Positions 1,100 to 10,384 of a stretch of DNA of 21,402 bases are shown piece by piece. The notes under the pieces were generated by a model. The model saw nothing but the letters and a program-made list of their open reading frames with translations, ran no database searches and had not been told where the DNA came from. How positions within the stretch are numbered: the stretch's first letter is position 1; each line of letters starts with the position of its first letter. Source of the DNA: a virus; the IMG/VR virus record IMGVR_UViG_3300042350_001509, positions 1-21,402 of that record. One strand, given 5' to 3'. Both the position numbers and the translations under genes were made by a program.

Positions 1100-2737
1100 G
1101 TGGCGCAAATTCCTTTCTCCCCTCCACAAGTTCAGGCTGCGCTGCAAAACCCCACACGCTTCCCTGACCAGAAGTTGCAGCAGTATGCTCAGAGGGGTAG
1201 CCCCACGGGACAAGTCTCGCCTATGATGGCGCAGCAAGAGATGGCGTCCAGGGGTCAAGAACGTCAAGCGTTTCAGCGACAGCAAGCTATGCAAAACAAT
1301 CCAGAAAACAGCCCGACAATTTTCCAGCAGAAAGACGCTGAGCTTGCACAAGCTCGTGCTGCACTGCAACAGCAGCAACAACAAGTCGGCATGCTGGGCG
1401 CTATGCTTGCTAAGAAACAGCAGGATCTACAAGCCCGTGAGCGCGGTATTGCTGCACTACCCATGCGCCAAGATATGTTTACTGCGATGGACGGTGGGAT
1501 TGTATTTAGGGGTGGTGGGCAGGTGCAGCGGTTTAACGGGCGTGATAGCAGCGACGTTAAAGATTATCCTGATATTGAAAAACTCCCGACAGAGCAGCGC
1601 AACGCGTTGATGGATTACGGTAGGGAGATTGAAGCAAGAATACTGCGTGAAGCACGCGCACGTCGAGAAGAAAATAAAAAGACACCGTCAACCACTAACG
1701 CTTCTGTATCTACAACAGGCGAGTCAAACAGACCTTCTACTGGAGCAGCTTCTAGGGCACCGACTGCATCTTCTGACTACGGCTCGCGCTTCGTGCGCAT
1801 GATGGCGCCTTATACAGGAGAGAGTGAAGAGTCTACGCAGTTGTCAGCAGACATACAAAGCAGCATCCGGCGTGAGATTGATGCGATTAACAGATCGCAG
1901 ATGTCAGAAGAAGATAAAGCTGCAGCGCGTAAAAAAGTTATTGAGGACATGCAGAAAGAATACGGCGAGTACACGAAGGGTCGTGAGTCGCGCCGTGGTG
2001 ATATAGCAGAAGCGCTAAGGGGTAAACCTGCCGACATGTGGCAGGGTATAGCTGCTGGACTACCGACAGATACGCGTGGGTTGCGGATAGCAGGGCTGCT
2101 CAGTGGTGTTGCTAAAGGTGTTGCAGGTGAGCGCGGTCGTGCTGAAGATCGTGAGCGCGAGGCCAGAATGTTCTTGGCAAAAGCGGCAGAAGAAGATGCA
2201 CGTGCAGATCTTGCTGAGCGTCGTGGTCAGCGTAAAGAAGCTGATGCCGCAGAACTTAGGGCGCAGCAGTTACGCAATGAAGCTGCAGATCGCATGCGTG
2301 CTACCGAGAAAACAGGGCGTGAAGGACTGGCTGCGCTGCTCTCAAGAAGTGATAAACAGGCAGACATCCAGCGTAGTATCGGAGCTAAAGCGGCTGAGAT
2401 GACTCTAGGGTTTGACGCTGACATAGCTAAGCTGCGTGAACAGGCGCGTCTGCGTCCACAAGACGCTTACACAACGGCACTTCAGTGGCTCGCTGGTGAT
2501 GATCCCAAGAAAAAACAAGCGGCTGAAATGTTGCTTGGACGTGGACGCGGCACCCTGTCTGATGTTAATCTTGCACCGCTGTTCCAGAAAGAAAAAGAGA
2601 AGTGGGAGTCGAATGTTGAAAATATGGGCAAGCCGTACCCATACTCTTTTGAACAATTTAAAGCACGTTTTGGCGGTAATGAAGCAGCCCCTCAGATGGA
2701 TCTTAGTGGATGGGGTACTCCTCGCCTTAAAGGATAG
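1100..2737 (+). CDS. Hydrophilic, coiled-coil phage protein, probable internal virion protein
   Basis: 545 residues, GTG start at 1100 supported by a strong GGAGGT at 1089-1094 with a 5-base gap; it begins 2 bases after the upstream stop. No enzyme motif is visible. The N-terminal 125 residues are Gln/Ala-rich with a poly-Gln run (residues about 90-95) and predicted helix. GGIVFRGGG at residues 132-140 recalls the Gly-rich element of the preceding gene. Residues 200-230 are a Ser/Thr/Ala-rich linker. Residues 235-430 are charged, Ala/Arg/Glu-rich helix of coiled-coil type. The C-terminal 90 residues look more globular, with YPYSFEQFKARFGG and a PQMDLSGWG tail. The position between a virion-type gene and a giant polyvalent protein, and the composition, suggest an internal virion or scaffold-like protein. 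I do not recognise a named family. Confidence 0.8.
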   Translation: MAQIPFSPPQVQAALQNPTRFPDQKLQQYAQRGSPTGQVSPMMAQQEMASRGQERQAFQRQQAMQNNPENSPTIFQQKDAELAQARAALQQQQQQVGMLGAMLAKKQQDLQARERGIAALPMRQDMFTAMDGGIVFRGGGQVQRFNGRDSSDVKDYPDIEKLPTEQRNALMDYGREIEARILREARARREENKKTPSTTNASVSTTGESNRPSTGAASRAPTASSDYGSRFVRMMAPYTGESEESTQLSADIQSSIRREIDAINRSQMSEEDKAAARKKVIEDMQKEYGEYTKGRESRRGDIAEALRGKPADMWQGIAAGLPTDTRGLRIAGLLSGVAKGVAGERGRAEDREREARMFLAKAAEEDARADLAERRGQRKEADAAELRAQQLRNEAADRMRATEKTGREGLAALLSRSDKQADIQRSIGAKAAEMTLGFDADIAKLREQARLRPQDAYTTALQWLAGDDPKKKQAAEMLLGRGRGTLSDVNLAPLFQKEKEKWESNVENMGKPYPYSFEQFKARFGGNEAAPQMDLSGWGTPRLKG

Positions 2738-2742
2738 TAAAC

Positions 2743-5700
2743 ATGCCGCTCTATGAGATCACCGGCCCTGATGGTCGCCTTTATGAAATCGAAGGTCCAG
2801 CAGGCGCAACAAAGGAACAAGTTGTTGCAGCGGTTGTTTCAAAGTTAGGGGGCATGCCTGCCCCTGCACGACCAGAGGGTGGGTTGCGAGGCGCTGTTAA
2901 GAAGGGTACAGAGTCTTTAATCTCAAGCGGGTTGGCAGGTCTTACAGGTGTCATCGACCCTGAGCGTGCAGCGCGTGAAGCACTTGAGCGTGAGCGCAGT
3001 ATTGGGCAGCGATATAAGGACGAGGTTAGTCTTGACGCGCTCAAAGAAAAGTATCAGCAAGAGGGGTTGTTTGCCGCAGGTAAAGAACTAGCACGGCAGG
3101 TGCCGATTGCTGTTGCTGAACAGCTCCCACAAGTTGGCGTTGCGCTTGGCGGCGCTCGGTTAGGTGCCATGGCAGGGGCTCCGCTTGGTCCTGTTGGTGC
3201 GGGTGTGGGTGCGGCGGTCGGTGCGTTTGCGCCATCTTTCCTTCAACAGTTCGGTACCAATCTTTCACGGCAAGCTGCTGAAGGTAAAACCATTGATGCA
3301 GCTTCGGCTGCAACAGCAGCAACCGCACAAGCAGGTCTTGAAACTGCTGCAGGGGCGTTCACCCTCGGTAAGCAGATGGTAGGAAAACTTATTGGTAGAC
3401 CTGCTGAAAAAGCAATTGACTCTGCTGCTGGACGTGCGCTTGCTGAACAAAGCCTAAAACGTTCGCTGGCTACAGGTGCTGTGCGTGCTACGGCTGTTGA
3501 AGTTCCGACAGAAGTTACACAAGCTATGCTTGAGCGTTTGCAAGCAGGACTCCCATTGCTCTCAGATGATGCGATTAAAGAATACGGTGACACGGCGTAC
3601 CAGACAGCGCTTGCATCGCCGGGGTTTGGTGGTGCTGCTCGTGTAGCTGAGCGTAGCGCGGTGCGTGCGCAGGTTGCTGAGGAAGAGTCAAAGAAGCGTG
3701 CAGAAGAACAGCAGCGTCAGGCAGCAGTAGAAGAACAACAGCGGCAAGCAGAAGAGGCTCGCAAACGCAGTCCTGAGTACATGCAGCAGCTCAACCAAGA
3801 GCAGGTGCAGTTAAAAGATGAGATGCGTCAGATCAACGAGTTGTTGAAAGACAAGACGCTCGACCCTGACCAGAAGCTTGAAGCCCAAGATCGTCGTAAA
3901 GATATTGGCAAGCGCTTAAAAGAAATCAATCAAGACATCCGCACGGTGTTCCCTGCACGTCCAGTCAGTGAATTGTTGGCTGAGCGACAAATGGCGCAAG
4001 AAGAAAAAGGTGCGCCTGTTGTTGACGAGTTTGGGAATATTGTCCCTGGGAAGTTTTTGCCTAGAAGTGAAGCTGACGTAGAGGCGCAGGTTGCCCAGGG
4101 TTACGACACAGAAATTAATCGCCTCCGAGCTGCAGAAGAAAAGCGGGTACAAGAATTACAGCTTGAACTGCAAGAAGCGTACCGTCGCACTGTCAGTGCA
4201 GCAGAACGCAAAGACGCAAAAGAAGAAGCTGAGTACAAAAAGCTAATTGCTGACATCTCGAAGAAAGTTGAGCAAGGAAAGAAAGCTTTAGTTAAGTCTG
4301 GCATGTCGGTGGATATGCAAGCACCGTTTGCTGAAGCTTACGACTCCCTTACAGAGGCAGCAGAGCAAGCGCAAGTTGGCACGTACGATGAGTCGCTCGT
4401 TGACCAGATCTTAGAGAAGATTCAGGCTGAACAGCCTAAAGCAACGGTTGAAGCTAAAGGTGAGTTGGCGCTTGAGGGACGTTCTAAAGTTACGGAACAG
4501 ATCCAAGAGCTTAAGAATCAACGTGAGAAAGCTGTTCAAGCACGCGATAAAGAAACGATTGCAAATATTGACGCTCAGGTTGCAGAACTAAGACGCACCG
4601 AAGCTGCTGCCGCACCAGACTATAAAGGCAAACAAGAAGAAGTATTTTTAGATTTAGAAAGCACTGTTGACGACCTCCGTAAACGTCGATACTTTGGCGT
4701 AACCGGGGAGACAGGTGAAGCTTCGTCGTTAGCCAAGTCTCTTCAAAAGAAAGCAACAGCGCTTAAAGGCGAGTACGTTAACAACGTGCTGCAAGAAATT
4801 GCAGAGTCTCGTGCGCAGCAGAAGCAAGTAGGATTAAACAAAGACGAAGAGCTTGCAGTCAGAGCGCGTCTTGATGCTGTGCTGCAGGAATACATTAAGC
4901 GTTCTCAAGCGCTATCGGCAAAAGAAATTGTCGATGGTATGGATCAAGTATTGGAAAAGCAGCGTGAGTTTGCACCGCGTGATGTGAAGGTGCTGACGCA
5001 GTTACAGAACAGGCTGAGGAACAACGCTGACAAAGAACTTGAGTTATCTAACCGTATTGAACGCGAGCCTAACGCAAATAACAAAGCGCAGCTTCAACGG
5101 CAGCTTGATGGCTTATTTAACCAGACCAGCCAGATAACTAATACGTTCTTGCAACGGCTGACAGAACCCCTAAAGGTTCGCACGGTTGAGGTACTAAGAC
5201 GCCCCAGCGATAAACGACCACTCGCAGAACGTCCGTTTGGTGCGCCTAAACGTGCCAGTGATATTTTGCAAGAACAGCTTGCTGAAGTTCGTGCTGAGTA
5301 TATGCAGCCTGAACGTCAAGCTGCGCCACAAGTTTTAAAGACACAGTTTGCAGGTGAAGAAGCTAAAAAAGTTGAAGCTGAACGCAGCACACTGAAACGT
5401 AAGATTGAGGCAGCAGAGAATCAGATCGAGCGTGTGCGCGGCATGGGTGAGTTACAGCCTGCTGTGGATAAAGCGTTTGATACGTTTGAGCGCATAGAAA
5501 AACCCAGCGAAGCGCTTGTAGACTTGGTGCTTGAGCAGACTGACCGCATCCTGCGTGGTACTGATCTACCCTTTAAACCCAGTGCTGATGTTGCACGTCG
5601 GGCGCAGCGCCCAGGTGCACAAAATACGGCTGAGCTGTTACCTCAGATACAGAAACAACTCGCCGCTGAACAACCTGCGCCAGAAGTTGGCGGTCCACAG

Positions 5701-8700
5701 ATGGACTTGTTTGGTGAGAAAGAACTTGAGCCACGGGCGACCATTCGCAAAACGCCAGAAGCGTTCATGCGTTTTCTTAACTCGTTCAAAGTCTCAAGCA
5801 TGCGCAAGAAGCTTGAAGATGCCAAGAAACAGATTGCAGACAACGAGAAAAAACAACAGGATGTTGAGCGTGCATCAAAGCAAAACCTTGATCGGTTAAT
5901 TGACGAGGTAGGAAAAGATGTTCGTAAAACTGCTTTAAAAGTTCAGCGCGATGTTGTTGAGCGTATAAACGCTGAAGGGTTGCGGGATCTTCAAACGCTT
6001 GCTCAGTCTATTTCTCAAGAACTTGCTGCTAAGACACGGCAGTATAAGAACATCGTTGAGAAGGCTGACCGTGCTGAGTACTACATCGCAGACGCAGACC
6101 GCCAAGCGGCTGATAAGTATTTGGAAGATTTGCGGACAGATCTTGCAGCAGTCATGGCTGAGATCAAAGACGCTGCTCCTGCGGCTGAAGATAAGCTGCT
6201 AGCCAACGCAGAGGTCGCGCTTGATAAACGTCTGAACTCTGAAAAAGAGTTGCTTCGCAAGCTTGAAGCTGAACGTGCTGCTAGGCAGGTTAAACCTGAA
6301 TCTGAACAAGCTATTGCACGCCGCAATATTGCCATACTTGAAGCTACTAAACGTCGTATTGCAGACCTCCGTGCTAAGGCTAAACAAGCAACAGAACAGC
6401 GGCTTGCAGGTATGCAAGGTGTGCGTCGCACAACCGAGACAGTTACGGTGCTTACTGAAGTTGGACGCGGTAAGAAGAAACGCCTTGAGCTTGCAGAACG
6501 CGAGCGCAAAGTTACACAACCTATTGGTAAAGGCGCAGAAAAGATTGAGCGTCGGGCTGAGGCGTTGGACCTTTCAAGCACTGCTGCTGAAGCGTATGCA
6601 CGTACGGCACAAGAAGAGAAAGTTCTGTCACCTGCTGAGGCAGCGCAAGCATTGCTGCGTGGCACAAAACAAAGCATAACCGCTACAGGTAATCTTGGCG
6701 GCACTACAGAACAGATACGCAAACAGCGCTTGAAGCCTTTGCGTGGTGGCAAAGCTGAACAAGCCGCTAAGAATATTGCTGAAGCTTCAACACTACGCCA
6801 GCGTGCTGCAGGTAAGAAAGCGCAAACAGATAAAGACTTACTTAAGTTGTTGAAGTCTTTTGAAGAAGGTATGGCACGAGAGAAGGATGACACCGTATTT
6901 CGTGTTGAAGAAACAGGAAACGCTGTTGTAGATCTTGCACAAGCTAAAGAGCGCGTTGATGCGTTTAAGGCAAAGCTGCCAGAAAACGTCAAGTTTGTTT
7001 ACGCTGAGTCTGTTGTTGATGCACCCAAAGCATTTATCCGTGCGCTGTATCAGCAGGGCATGGACATAGACAGCGCGAAAGTTAAGGGTGGTGTGCTGCC
7101 TGACGGTACGATTGTTGTGATCGGTGAGAACCACACCGATATGCTTGATCTTGAAAAGACGTTGGTGCATGAGGTTGTTGGTCACTATGGGGTTGATACG
7201 CTCCTTGGTGAAAAAGGCATGGACAACCTGATTGAGACTGTCAACGCTCAGAAGGGCGGCATGGCTGCGCTTGCAGAAAGCCTTGGTGTTTATGACGCAG
7301 CATTAGGCGCAGCGTTTGGGTTACGTCGTGTTGGTGCGTCTGAAAAAGATCAGCAACGCGCAGCTATGCGCGAGCTTATTGCCCACGTTGAAGAAGCACG
7401 CATCGATGAAAACTTTAAACAAAAAGCACGTCGCTTTTTGGGTGAGTTGATTGGTGCGGTAAAAGCTGCGCTGAGAAAGATGGGGTTAATGACACTGGTT
7501 GAGCAGACCCCCTCCGACATTTATTTCCTGTTGAGGCAAGCTCGTAGCAAAATGGCTGAATCTCAGCCGGGAGCGTACAGAACAGTAGGCGGAGAGGTCG
7601 CGTTCCGTGGACAGACTAGGTACGACGCAAGCGTGCCGGAAGAAGTCATCCGCGCTAACAACAAGGTGGTTGCGGCACCTGCTGGTGTGTTTGATAAGGT
7701 CAAGGCTAACAACTCATGGCTGGCCGTGCGCACACAGTTTATCGACCGCTTCGAGCCTCTGGAACGTGTTGCTGAGCAGATGAAGGATTCACTGCAGGCG
7801 ACGCAGATGATGTATTACTTGCGCATGTACGACCAGCGCATGAGCTTCACAGCCGAGGTCACTAACAATGGACCGCTTGTGCTTGATAAACAGAAGCGTG
7901 CTGATGGGCGTGAAGAGATTGTTGTAAAGAGCAGTGGCACTACGTCACTTAAAGATGTGGCCGATGAGTTACGCAAAGTCACATCCATGAACGCTGATGC
8001 TGCGAACATGACCTTTACAACTTATCTGGCTGCACTGCGTGCAGACCGCGTTGGTATTGACACACTTAACTTTGACCCCTCGCTGACACAAGCTGATCTT
8101 GATGCAGTCAAAGACTTTGTTGCACGTACGCCTGATGTTAAGGCTGCGTTTGAGAAAGCCAGAGAGAAGTACAACGCCTACAACAAAGGGCTTGTTGAGT
8201 TCTTAGTACAGACCGGCGCATTGTCTAAAGACACGGCGAAGAAACTCTCAGAAACAAATGACTATATTCCTTTCTACAGAAAGCAAGGCGGCAACGCAGA
8301 GCTTGTACTAGGTGGAGAGATTGCACCGATCACGGTTGGTAACTTAAAGAATCAACCCTACCTCAACGAGTTAGTAGGCGATAACCGGCACATTCTGGAT
8401 TTCTTTACCAGCTCTGTGCAGAACACCAACATGTTGACAGATATGGCGCTGCGCAACCTAGCCACGCGTAACGTCGCGTTTGGTCTGGGTGAGATGGGTC
8501 TGCTTGAGCGCACACCCAAAGAGATTGAGGCAAACAAGTCTGGCATCCGTAAAGGCAAAGCCAAAGGTGCAGAAGTTATTCGCTTTAAGATTGACGGCGA
8601 GGACTACTACGCTGAAGCCAGCACCGATGCAATTGGCATACCCTCTGACTTGTTAGTTAAAGGGCTTGAAGGTATCTCCATGACGGTGCCTGCAGCCGTA

Positions 8701-10212
8701 CGCATGCTTGGTGTACCTGCACAGATCCTACGTAAATTTATTACACGCAACCCTGTGTATGCGCTTCGACAGATTGTCCGTGACTCTACGGCTGCTGTGA
8801 TGGTGTCTGGCGCTAACATGACGCCAGTGGCCTCGTCGCTAAAAGAACTTGGCAAGATGCGTCAGGGTAAGAGTGAAGGTGAGAAGCTCCTGCAAGAGCG
8901 TGGGGTTCTGGGTGGTCAGGTGCTAACCGGCACGCCTGAAGATCTCTCAAAGATGTTACGCGAACTTGCTGGTGGCGGTAAATCGTGGACAACAGCTATG
9001 GCTAAGCTCGATAACTTAGCTGTCCAGGGTGATGCCGCAACGCGTGTAGTGATGTACAACAGCTTCCGCAAGCAGGGGCTGTCTGATATGGAGGCAACGC
9101 TTGCCACGTTAGAGTCTATGAACTTTAACCGTCGTGGTTTGTCGCCTAGCGTGTACATGCTGTCCATGATGGTGCCGTTCATGAACGCCCAGATCCAAGG
9201 TTTGGATGTGTTGTACCGTGCGTTTACAGGCAAGATGCCGTTTAATCAACAGCTTAAGGTAAGAGAGAAGTTAATCGCCCGTGGCTTGATGCTTGCCGGT
9301 ATAACGATGGCATACGCTGCCATGATGGAGGATGACGAGACGTACAAGAACGCAGACCCCACTGATCGGGCGATGAACTTCTTTGTACACACTCCATTCT
9401 TTGACGAAGCTGTGCGCATACCCATCCCGTTTGAGATTGGCTATATCTTTAAAACATTGCCTGAGATGGTTTACAACACCGCTTTTGGTGATACAGAAAT
9501 CAAACAGGTAGCGCCAGCTATAAGGAAAATTCTTTCAAGCCTTGTGCCTGGAGATATTCCTGCCGGTATCAAGCCAATGATTGAGTTGATGACGAACTAC
9601 TCGTTTTATAGCGGCAAAGCTATTGAGAGCGAACGGGAGAAGGCGCTTGTACCAGAAGAGCGGTACCGTGCTGGAACCTCTGAAGTGTCTAAACTTATCG
9701 GTCAGTTGTTTGGTATCTCACCCATCAAAATTGACTACATGATTCGCGGTTACACCGGAGGTCTGGGTGTCGCTGCTGTCAGCATCGCTAACCCTGTTCT
9801 TGCGGCAGATGAGAAAGTTTCTGCTGAAAAGAGAGTAAGTGAGCTGCCGATAGTTGGGGGTCTCTTCCAACCCAAAGATGCCCAAGGGCTAATAAACTAC
9901 GCTTACGAACTTGTTGGTGACATCGAGCAGCGTCAGCGCACGATAAAGACTATTCAGGAGCGTGGTCGCCGCGAGGACGTGCAGGAGTTTTTGGAAGAAA
10001 ACAGGGACTTACTCAAGATGGCTCCAGCCGCAGGCTCATTTAAGAAGAGGATGGGCGAGTACGCAGCACGTGAGCGGTATATTCGTGATGCAGAGGGTAT
10101 GTCCCCCGCTGAGAAGCGGGAGAAGCTCGACCAGATTAGGGATGCTCGGATCGAATTTGCGAAGAAAATGATAGCCGCTGTCGCTGAAAGTAAACGCCTA
10201 GCTGACCGTTGA
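2743..10212 (+). CDS. Giant large polyvalent protein with HExxGH metallopeptidase-like and LPD38-like regions
   Basis: 2489 residues. The ATG follows AAGGA (2728-2732) and lies 5 bases after the previous stop. Order of parts: residues 1-37, a YEITGPDGRLYEIEGPAGAT module that recurs at the N-termini of phage virion proteins; about 115-215, Gly/Ala-rich hydrophobic segment; about 300-1440, Lys/Glu/Gln/Ala-rich coiled coil; 1440-1560, a globular domain with H1476-EVVG-H1481-YG and candidate third ligand E1544 in RELIAHVEE; about 1620-2000, helical region with NDYIPFYR; about 2003-2250, NPVYALRQIVRDS and LDNLAVQGDAATR, resembling LPD38, with a hydrophobic stretch at 2178-2197. Such polyvalent proteins occur in phages and mobile elements and are thought to enter the host with the DNA. 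No lysozyme or transglycosylase motif is visible. It ends the + strand module. Inference: ejected internal virion protein, possibly with peptidase activity. LPD38 assignment is from memory of the pattern. Confidence 0.85.
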   Translation: MPLYEITGPDGRLYEIEGPAGATKEQVVAAVVSKLGGMPAPARPEGGLRGAVKKGTESLISSGLAGLTGVIDPERAAREALERERSIGQRYKDEVSLDALKEKYQQEGLFAAGKELARQVPIAVAEQLPQVGVALGGARLGAMAGAPLGPVGAGVGAAVGAFAPSFLQQFGTNLSRQAAEGKTIDAASAATAATAQAGLETAAGAFTLGKQMVGKLIGRPAEKAIDSAAGRALAEQSLKRSLATGAVRATAVEVPTEVTQAMLERLQAGLPLLSDDAIKEYGDTAYQTALASPGFGGAARVAERSAVRAQVAEEESKKRAEEQQRQAAVEEQQRQAEEARKRSPEYMQQLNQEQVQLKDEMRQINELLKDKTLDPDQKLEAQDRRKDIGKRLKEINQDIRTVFPARPVSELLAERQMAQEEKGAPVVDEFGNIVPGKFLPRSEADVEAQVAQGYDTEINRLRAAEEKRVQELQLELQEAYRRTVSAAERKDAKEEAEYKKLIADISKKVEQGKKALVKSGMSVDMQAPFAEAYDSLTEAAEQAQVGTYDESLVDQILEKIQAEQPKATVEAKGELALEGRSKVTEQIQELKNQREKAVQARDKETIANIDAQVAELRRTEAAAAPDYKGKQEEVFLDLESTVDDLRKRRYFGVTGETGEASSLAKSLQKKATALKGEYVNNVLQEIAESRAQQKQVGLNKDEELAVRARLDAVLQEYIKRSQALSAKEIVDGMDQVLEKQREFAPRDVKVLTQLQNRLRNNADKELELSNRIEREPNANNKAQLQRQLDGLFNQTSQITNTFLQRLTEPLKVRTVEVLRRPSDKRPLAERPFGAPKRASDILQEQLAEVRAEYMQPERQAAPQVLKTQFAGEEAKKVEAERSTLKRKIEAAENQIERVRGMGELQPAVDKAFDTFERIEKPSEALVDLVLEQTDRILRGTDLPFKPSADVARRAQRPGAQNTAELLPQIQKQLAAEQPAPEVGGPQMDLFGEKELEPRATIRKTPEAFMRFLNSFKVSSMRKKLEDAKKQIADNEKKQQDVERASKQNLDRLIDEVGKDVRKTALKVQRDVVERINAEGLRDLQTLAQSISQELAAKTRQYKNIVEKADRAEYYIADADRQAADKYLEDLRTDLAAVMAEIKDAAPAAEDKLLANAEVALDKRLNSEKELLRKLEAERAARQVKPESEQAIARRNIAILEATKRRIADLRAKAKQATEQRLAGMQGVRRTTETVTVLTEVGRGKKKRLELAERERKVTQPIGKGAEKIERRAEALDLSSTAAEAYARTAQEEKVLSPAEAAQALLRGTKQSITATGNLGGTTEQIRKQRLKPLRGGKAEQAAKNIAEASTLRQRAAGKKAQTDKDLLKLLKSFEEGMAREKDDTVFRVEETGNAVVDLAQAKERVDAFKAKLPENVKFVYAESVVDAPKAFIRALYQQGMDIDSAKVKGGVLPDGTIVVIGENHTDMLDLEKTLVHEVVGHYGVDTLLGEKGMDNLIETVNAQKGGMAALAESLGVYDAALGAAFGLRRVGASEKDQQRAAMRELIAHVEEARIDENFKQKARRFLGELIGAVKAALRKMGLMTLVEQTPSDIYFLLRQARSKMAESQPGAYRTVGGEVAFRGQTRYDASVPEEVIRANNKVVAAPAGVFDKVKANNSWLAVRTQFIDRFEPLERVAEQMKDSLQATQMMYYLRMYDQRMSFTAEVTNNGPLVLDKQKRADGREEIVVKSSGTTSLKDVADELRKVTSMNADAANMTFTTYLAALRADRVGIDTLNFDPSLTQADLDAVKDFVARTPDVKAAFEKAREKYNAYNKGLVEFLVQTGALSKDTAKKLSETNDYIPFYRKQGGNAELVLGGEIAPITVGNLKNQPYLNELVGDNRHILDFFTSSVQNTNMLTDMALRNLATRNVAFGLGEMGLLERTPKEIEANKSGIRKGKAKGAEVIRFKIDGEDYYAEASTDAIGIPSDLLVKGLEGISMTVPAAVRMLGVPAQILRKFITRNPVYALRQIVRDSTAAVMVSGANMTPVASSLKELGKMRQGKSEGEKLLQERGVLGGQVLTGTPEDLSKMLRELAGGGKSWTTAMAKLDNLAVQGDAATRVVMYNSFRKQGLSDMEATLATLESMNFNRRGLSPSVYMLSMMVPFMNAQIQGLDVLYRAFTGKMPFNQQLKVREKLIARGLMLAGITMAYAAMMEDDETYKNADPTDRAMNFFVHTPFFDEAVRIPIPFEIGYIFKTLPEMVYNTAFGDTEIKQVAPAIRKILSSLVPGDIPAGIKPMIELMTNYSFYSGKAIESEREKALVPEERYRAGTSEVSKLIGQLFGISPIKIDYMIRGYTGGLGVAAVSIANPVLAADEKVSAEKRVSELPIVGGLFQPKDAQGLINYAYELVGDIEQRQRTIKTIQERGRREDVQEFLEENRDLLKMAPAAGSFKKRMGEYAARERYIRDAEGMSPAEKREKLDQIRDARIEFAKKMIAAVAESKRLADR
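7168..7191 (+). other. HExxGH metallopeptidase-like motif in the giant protein
   Basis: Codons 1476-1483 read HEVVGHYG. The spacing is H-E-x-x-x-H with Gly before the second His, unlike the usual HExxH of zincins but like the HExxGH of M49 dipeptidyl peptidase III. A downstream glutamate (E1544, codon 7372-7374) in a helical segment is a plausible third ligand. The same motif type is common in large polyvalent phage proteins. Confidence 0.6.
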
Positions 10213-10384
10213 CAATACAGACAAACGGTTTGATATGAAAGATGTGCCTTTCTGTAGCTGAGCGGTATGCTTGCTCTATCGTGCGCTCAGGATTGAGCGT
10301 GGGGACAAAGAAACCGCCTCCTAGCGGAACTTGTTCCCACGGAAACTCAATCTTCAATTTCTGGCATTGAGATTCGGATTGCAT
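10136..10384 (-). CDS. Small conserved phage protein (VPLGGGFFVP type)
   Basis: About 82 residues from ATG at 10384; a GTG two codons upstream (10390) is an alternative, and only a weak AGGGA precedes either. The core, FPWEQVPLGGGFFVPTL followed by a basic helix and ending near GVYFQRQR, matches a small unannotated protein family that I recall from many phages (pattern FPxxxVPxGxSFFVP...GxRVxR). No function is known to me. It overlaps the end of the primase-helicase gene by about 38 bases upstream. Its last 25 codons overlap the end of the giant + strand gene by 77 bases in convergent orientation. Two inverted repeats lie within it. It is the last gene of the - strand run. The family match is pattern memory, so moderate confidence. 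Confidence 0.65.
   Translation of the reverse strand: MQSESQCQKLKIEFPWEQVPLGGGFFVPTLNPERTIEQAYRSATERHIFHIKPFVCIVNGQLGVYFQRQRLSFSSQIRSEHP
10283..10341. terminator. Two consecutive inverted repeats at the convergent gene junction
   Basis: First hairpin: GCGCTCA (10283-10289), loop GGAT, TGAGCGT (10294-10300). Second: CGTGGGGACAAAG (10298-10310) pairs with CTTGTTCCCACG (10330-10341) through 12 pairs with one G-U and one bulged A. It encloses CCGC (10314-10317) and GCGG (10324-10327) around a 6-base loop. The two share CGT, so they may be alternatives. There is no T-run on either side, so intrinsic termination is uncertain; the location between converging transcripts is the reason for suspecting it. 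Confidence 0.35.

Follow-up and report, generated by a model that had tools for sequence, protein, structure and literature searches.

The 2489-residue protein described here is most likely an ejection (internal virion) protein of a short-tailed phage, the third and largest of its set, and is of polyvalent build. Its gene lies in a 21,402-base IMG/VR virus record, referred to as the window, where a single ORF of 2489 codons runs exactly between the predicted ends and takes up about 35% of the sequence, in agreement with the third originally estimated; the ATG start directly follows GGATAGTAAAC. In a comparison with the sister locus L005 over residues 1621-2489, substitutions amounted to 0.104, 0.032 and 0.425 at the first, second and third codon positions, and the third position carried the most changes in every block compared with this sister, although this was least evident over the first 45 codons. 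This third-position excess supports the view that the frame is a real coding gene under purifying selection. An antisense open frame of 303 residues is also present inside the gene (window 6081-6992) and is probably a by-product of codon usage. The features discussed below are collected in Table 1.

Table 1. Features of the LPD38 protein gene and of the genes preceding it in the window
Feature	Position	Strand	Basis
LPD38 polyvalent protein gene, 2489 residues, whole ORF	2743..10212	+	ORF list, Pfam, codon-position substitutions
DUF4214 protein, C-terminal 364 residues	3..1097	+	family search, homology
545-residue protein between ejection homologue and LPD38 gene	1100..2737	+	position
N-terminal tag, residues 1-44, predicted hairpin plus helix	2743..2874	+	model, tag comparison
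Hydrophobic Gly/Ala and helical block, residues ~105-320	3055..3702	+	hydropathy, relatives' coverage
Charged, predicted helical middle, residues ~321-1350	3703..6792	+	composition, model, relatives' coverage
Zincin-type peptidase domain, residues ~1381-1620, HEVVGH 1476-1481, conserved E1544/E1551	6883..7602	+	motif, conservation, structural and profile comparison
Constant C-terminal module, residues ~1621-2489	7603..10209	+	comparison of relatives
Most hydrophobic segment, residues 2176-2196, candidate membrane helix	9268..9330	+	hydropathy
LPD38 (PF18857), residues 2198-2371	9334..9855	+	Pfam

The surroundings of the gene are those of a structural cassette that, judged by sequence relationships, is podovirus-like. 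In the contig of one relative (L014), families of terminase, portal (a protein of 822 residues) and head proteins are present, and the phrog_3287 gene of the cassette has relatives in Bruynoghevirus-type Pseudomonas phages, in Sinorhizobium phiM5 and in Pelagibacter phages. In L008, a contig nearly identical to the window, the preceding genes encode a lysozyme, the phrog_3287 virion structural protein, three proteins without a family, and the full DUF4214 protein (923 residues, 5584-8355). The last ~200 residues of the latter are homologous to a gene product of L014 (34%, E 2e-24), which in turn matches PHROG 4287, "DNA ejection protein" (E 1.5e-13); the same family is also matched by the place-equivalent genes of MinM2 (E 2.1e-19) and DSL-LC04 (E 6.9e-9). 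The order is thus head and tail genes, the phrog_3287 stabilisation-type gene, the ejection-gene homologue and then the LPD38 gene, with virion genes adjoining the giant and the ejection genes clustered, the largest last, as in PMC8954989. An ejection-gene homologue was found no more than 2.1 kb upstream in 16 of the 17 loci of the lineage with enough sequence (15 of 16 from IMG/VR, several of them near-duplicates, plus MinM2), and was not detected in eight distant cultured LPD38 phages. The 545-residue protein encoded in between has no family in Pfam or PHROGs and no match in the phage collection, and is by its position a candidate second ejection protein. A change of strand follows the LPD38 gene in 82 of 86 loci; in the window, a primase-helicase-like protein, an SNF2 helicase, a PD-(D/E)XK nuclease and a family A DNA polymerase are encoded on the opposite strand. 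Between the converging genes there is a terminator-like minus-strand hairpin (10314-10327; one found against 0.2 expected).

LPD38 is the only Pfam domain in the window protein (E 3e-31; 109.4 bits against a curated cut-off of 27), and the stretch directly before it has the highest hydrophobicity of the whole chain (Kyte-Doolittle 1.56), which together bear out the predicted LPD38-like region with its membrane-like helix. Two PHROGs families of unknown function extend across the C-terminal third. A comparison with relatives from 79 IMG/VR loci and 174 phage records reveals a constant C-terminal module of ~860 residues common to them, with other domains replacing the middle: among 19 distant full-length relatives, residues 1701-2400 are covered in 95%, and residues 401-1300 in at most 9%. 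In chains run whole with Pfam, or published, LPD38 ends 109-143 residues before the C-terminus, as in phage JC1, where it ends at residue 4401 of 4515 (PMC9144972). The exception is Pelagibacter phage HTVC010P, in which LPD38 ends 20 residues before the end of a 504-residue protein; its gene (L098 9761-11275) is separate from that of the large protein, and the large protein may be split in this phage, or the record may contain a frameshift. Relatives range from ~1680 to 4650 residues, and different enzyme domains precede the constant end. Upstream of LPD38 are found a ParB-like domain and a methyltransferase in phiARM81mr, a methyltransferase in Vibrio phage 1.183.O, a helicase and a methyltransferase in Vibrio phage D274, and a lytic transglycosylase, a methylase and a helicase in DC1 and JC1. 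Two main types of peptidase motif are seen among the relatives, HExxGH(Y/F/H) and HExxHAA; their distance from the C-terminus is ~965-1120 residues in most relatives and 1400-1800 in others. Bacillus phages, for example Page (L100 7331-12370), have LPD38 proteins as well, and their host has no outer membrane; the module is therefore not tied to a Gram-negative envelope. A search of contigs from 84,980 genomes returned no relative, which may reflect the patterns used.

With LPD38 and a zincin-type domain, the window protein combines two recognised domains in one chain, only one of them of enzyme type. The expectation that it would deliver several activities at once was not sustained, as Pfam and PHROGs reveal one enzyme-type domain only, the putative peptidase, and the protein yielded no peptidoglycan hydrolase domain. 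The proposed peptidase-like domain itself gains support from its HEVVGH motif and from residue conservation: across 30 sequences with this type of peptidase, H1476, E1477, G1480, H1481, E1544 and E1551 are each retained at a frequency of 95% or more, the predicted zinc-binding residues being among them. The motif has the HExxxH form, which has been described in a set of polyvalent proteins (Iyer et al., PMC5512222). Structural comparison of this part with a solved zincin metalloprotease domain gave Z 6.8 (rmsd 4.5, 162 aligned), below the reliable level of the tool, and a search of the sequences of solved structures with the whole protein gave one weak zincin (E 0.097). Both the peptidase activity and its target are putative.

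Several comparisons connect peptidases of this kind with the virion RNA polymerase of phage N4, whose C1 domain, with a zincin motif, comprises residues 2124-2375 (PMC12633501). According to Iyer et al. (PMC5512222), encapsidation requires the peptidase-bearing region of N4. One relative with LPD38 (L037) has a match to the N4 polymerase family (E 2.3e-10) over profile positions 2100-2339, where C1 lies, and the internal virion protein phiKMV gp37 matches that region too (E 2.5e-17). For the window peptidase itself the N4 motif is in register and the similarity is weak (P 0.0065 as a single comparison; hhalign probability 6-25%), scoring above all 30 shuffles when the whole N4 end was compared and above 28 of 30 with C1 alone. 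The gp37 protein of phiKMV (L112 5567-9580), which is of the T7 gp16 type, contains a zincin-type HEAVHA domain related to that of N4 (hhalign probability 94%). In L014 (9545-17884) and L015, an insert of ~100 residues (residues ~1657-1770 of the L014 protein) occurs soon after a HEAGH motif and begins with a twin-arginine-like stretch, MTRRQFLKGAVTGLTALKL.

The short N-terminal module foreseen in the original prediction does exist: residues 3-35 are modelled, at low confidence, as strand-strand-helix, and in the loci searched the module recurs at the N-terminus of LPD38 proteins and nowhere else. The tag differs from those of sister loci at 67-80% of positions, whereas the block that follows differs at 18-26% (74-82% identity), and it more closely resembles those of L039, L050 and L056, which are more distant loci. 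This pattern indicates that such tags have probably been exchanged. Next comes, as predicted, the hydrophobic Gly/Ala segment (residues 120-169), with a Kyte-Doolittle maximum of 1.32; residues 201-300 are the best-shared part of the N-terminal half, being present in 67% of the 19 distant full-length relatives. Between residues ~308 and 1350, E, K, R, D and Q account for 39-61% of the composition, and helices of up to 96 residues are predicted. The claim of more than 1000 residues of coiled coil was not confirmed; because the model of the N-terminal half has a mean pLDDT of 49.5, a coiled coil is graded as plausible only for this ~1000-residue region. Structural matches to the model of this half were to the long helices of unrelated proteins.

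A natural replacement of the giant is seen in DSL-LC04, a phage from a lake metagenome (PMC10611076). It resembles the window lineage in its phrog_3287 gene (38%), its ejection-family gene (35%) and its SNF2 gene (27%). In the equivalent slot, as the last structural gene, it carries a 1068-residue protein annotated as "DNA transfer protein", and divergent PD-(D/E)XK and SNF2 genes come next, as in the window lineage. That label is the annotation of the depositors, and the phrase is absent from the main text of PMC10611076. Like the window protein, this protein occupies a slot between related neighbours and has a hydrophobic Gly/Ala stretch near its N-terminus; unlike it, it is 1068 residues long and has neither similarity to the LPD38 module nor an HExxH motif. 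The syntenic swap within the lineage suggests that ejection is the underlying function.

Counterparts of the window protein can be sought among giants of known phages. JC1 gp69 and Bcep22 gp75 share with it an LPD38 domain ending ~114 residues from the C-terminus, the place of last and largest gene in the virion cassette, and a multidomain plan. The gp69 protein of JC1, a Burkholderia podovirus, differs in its 4515 residues (LPD38 at 4195-4401; PMC9144972) and in having lytic transglycosylase, methylase and helicase domains, in place of which the window protein shows only a long, predicted helical middle and the putative peptidase. Mass spectrometry of CsCl-purified JC1 virions detected it with 51 unique peptides, and its score ranked second (PMC9144972), and the giant of the sister phage, DC1 gp67, is similar to the C-terminal module of the window protein in tblastn (22%, E 4e-6). 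The N4 virion RNA polymerase, gp50, is likewise a giant protein of a short-tailed phage, in which C1, the zincin-motif domain, immediately precedes C2, a large helical domain at the C-terminus (PMC12633501), but its RNA polymerase has no counterpart in the window protein, and C2 and the constant module display no detectable homology in sequence (hhalign score 24.1 against a shuffled maximum of 27.2). T7 gp16 and phiKMV gp37 also are the products of the largest ejection gene, placed last after two smaller ones, and phiKMV gp37 likewise has an HExxH domain; they differ in that no lytic transglycosylase was found in the window protein.

Sequence homology between the C-terminal module and T7 gp16 was considered and rejected. 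An initial and a deeper pair of profiles both scored at chance level in hhalign, and segment tests against block-shuffled and reversed controls, as well as hmmsearch among 2503 ORFs, yielded nothing above chance; a likeness of motifs noted by eye (YIPFYR versus YVPHVYD) did not hold up. In fold, T7 gp16 was matched with Z 6.7 (9jyy_I; rmsd 5.6, 209 aligned) and Z 4.9 (7eyb_I), below the reliable level of the tool, and this overlap of a predicted model with a solved structure is only a lead. Foldseek against the PDB gave no match with E below 0.18, and the C-terminal profile gave none against the sequences of solved structures.

These observations are most readily accommodated by a packaged and ejected polyvalent protein. 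In such a scheme the window protein would be synthesized late, would enter the head by means of its C-terminal peptidase plus LPD38 region, and would leave through the portal and tail together with the DNA; its hydrophobic segments would aid in crossing the cell envelope or in anchoring there, and the zincin-type domain would cut either the protein itself, in the release or maturation of its parts, or a host protein. As to the earlier proposal of packaging and ejection with the genome, it finds favor in the gene position, the ejection family two genes upstream, the swap in DSL-LC04 and the JC1 virions; since that last evidence comes from a distant relative, packaging of the window protein is something we infer, together with its ejection and membrane insertion. 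The LPD38 match, the conserved predicted catalytic residues and a zincin-type domain in common with ejected or internal virion proteins also speak for this reading. Against it count the eight distant cultured LPD38 phages in which no ejection-gene homologue was detected upstream, the negative sequence comparisons with T7 gp16 and N4 C2, the weakness of the link between the window peptidase and N4, and the failure to find a peptidoglycan hydrolase domain.

An unlikely reading, albeit the best placed of the alternatives, is that the protein is packaged solely as a carrier of effectors for anti-restriction or host take-over, with no part in DNA delivery. The methyltransferase, helicase and ParB-like domains of relatives agree with it, as do the description of the JC1 protein as DarB-like (PMC9144972) and the role of such kind proposed by Iyer et al. 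(PMC5512222). However, retention of the constant module while the rest varies suggests a role in ejection, as does the protein annotated for DNA transfer in the DSL-LC04 slot, and the two roles are in any case compatible rather than exclusive. A broader proposition, which we consider doubtful, is that the constant LPD38 module is a general carrier for capsid loading and envelope crossing to which exchangeable enzymes are attached, that the zincin-type domain would act as its release protease, and that it may share remote ancestry with the C-terminal portions of two other proteins, T7 gp16 and the N4 virion RNA polymerase. A protein produced in infected cells but never packaged is very unlikely in view of the location of its gene at the end of the structural cassette and of the JC1 virion mass spectrometry (PMC9144972). 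Least credible of all is a tail tape measure, a long helical protein setting tail length, for although the length, long predicted helices and hydrophobic segments would suit one, the window protein matches no tape measure family in Pfam or PHROGs, its cassette is podovirus-like by the relatives of phrog_3287, the L014 structural genes scanned include no tail tube or tape measure family, LPD38 homologues occur in podophages such as JC1 and DC1 (PMC9144972), and the relatives vary widely in length and in the enzyme domains before their constant end.

To return to the preferred interpretation, a packaged ejection protein, the class to which it belongs is known: LPD38 polyvalent proteins were described as such by Iyer et al. 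in 2017 (PMC5512222), and the window protein is a further member. The original remark that these proteins are poorly described accordingly holds for their mechanism and not for the class. We did not find stated in the cited literature the layout of constant end and variable middle across the lineage, the slot swap or the exchange of tags, which together furnish a testable claim on the role of LPD38. The window adds a clear example of such a protein, which has a single peptidase and lacks any known cargo enzyme. If the constant module does load and eject these giants, it would represent a portable signal by which proteins are directed into phage heads and into the cells of the host, and would link ejection proteins between which no relationship is apparent at present.
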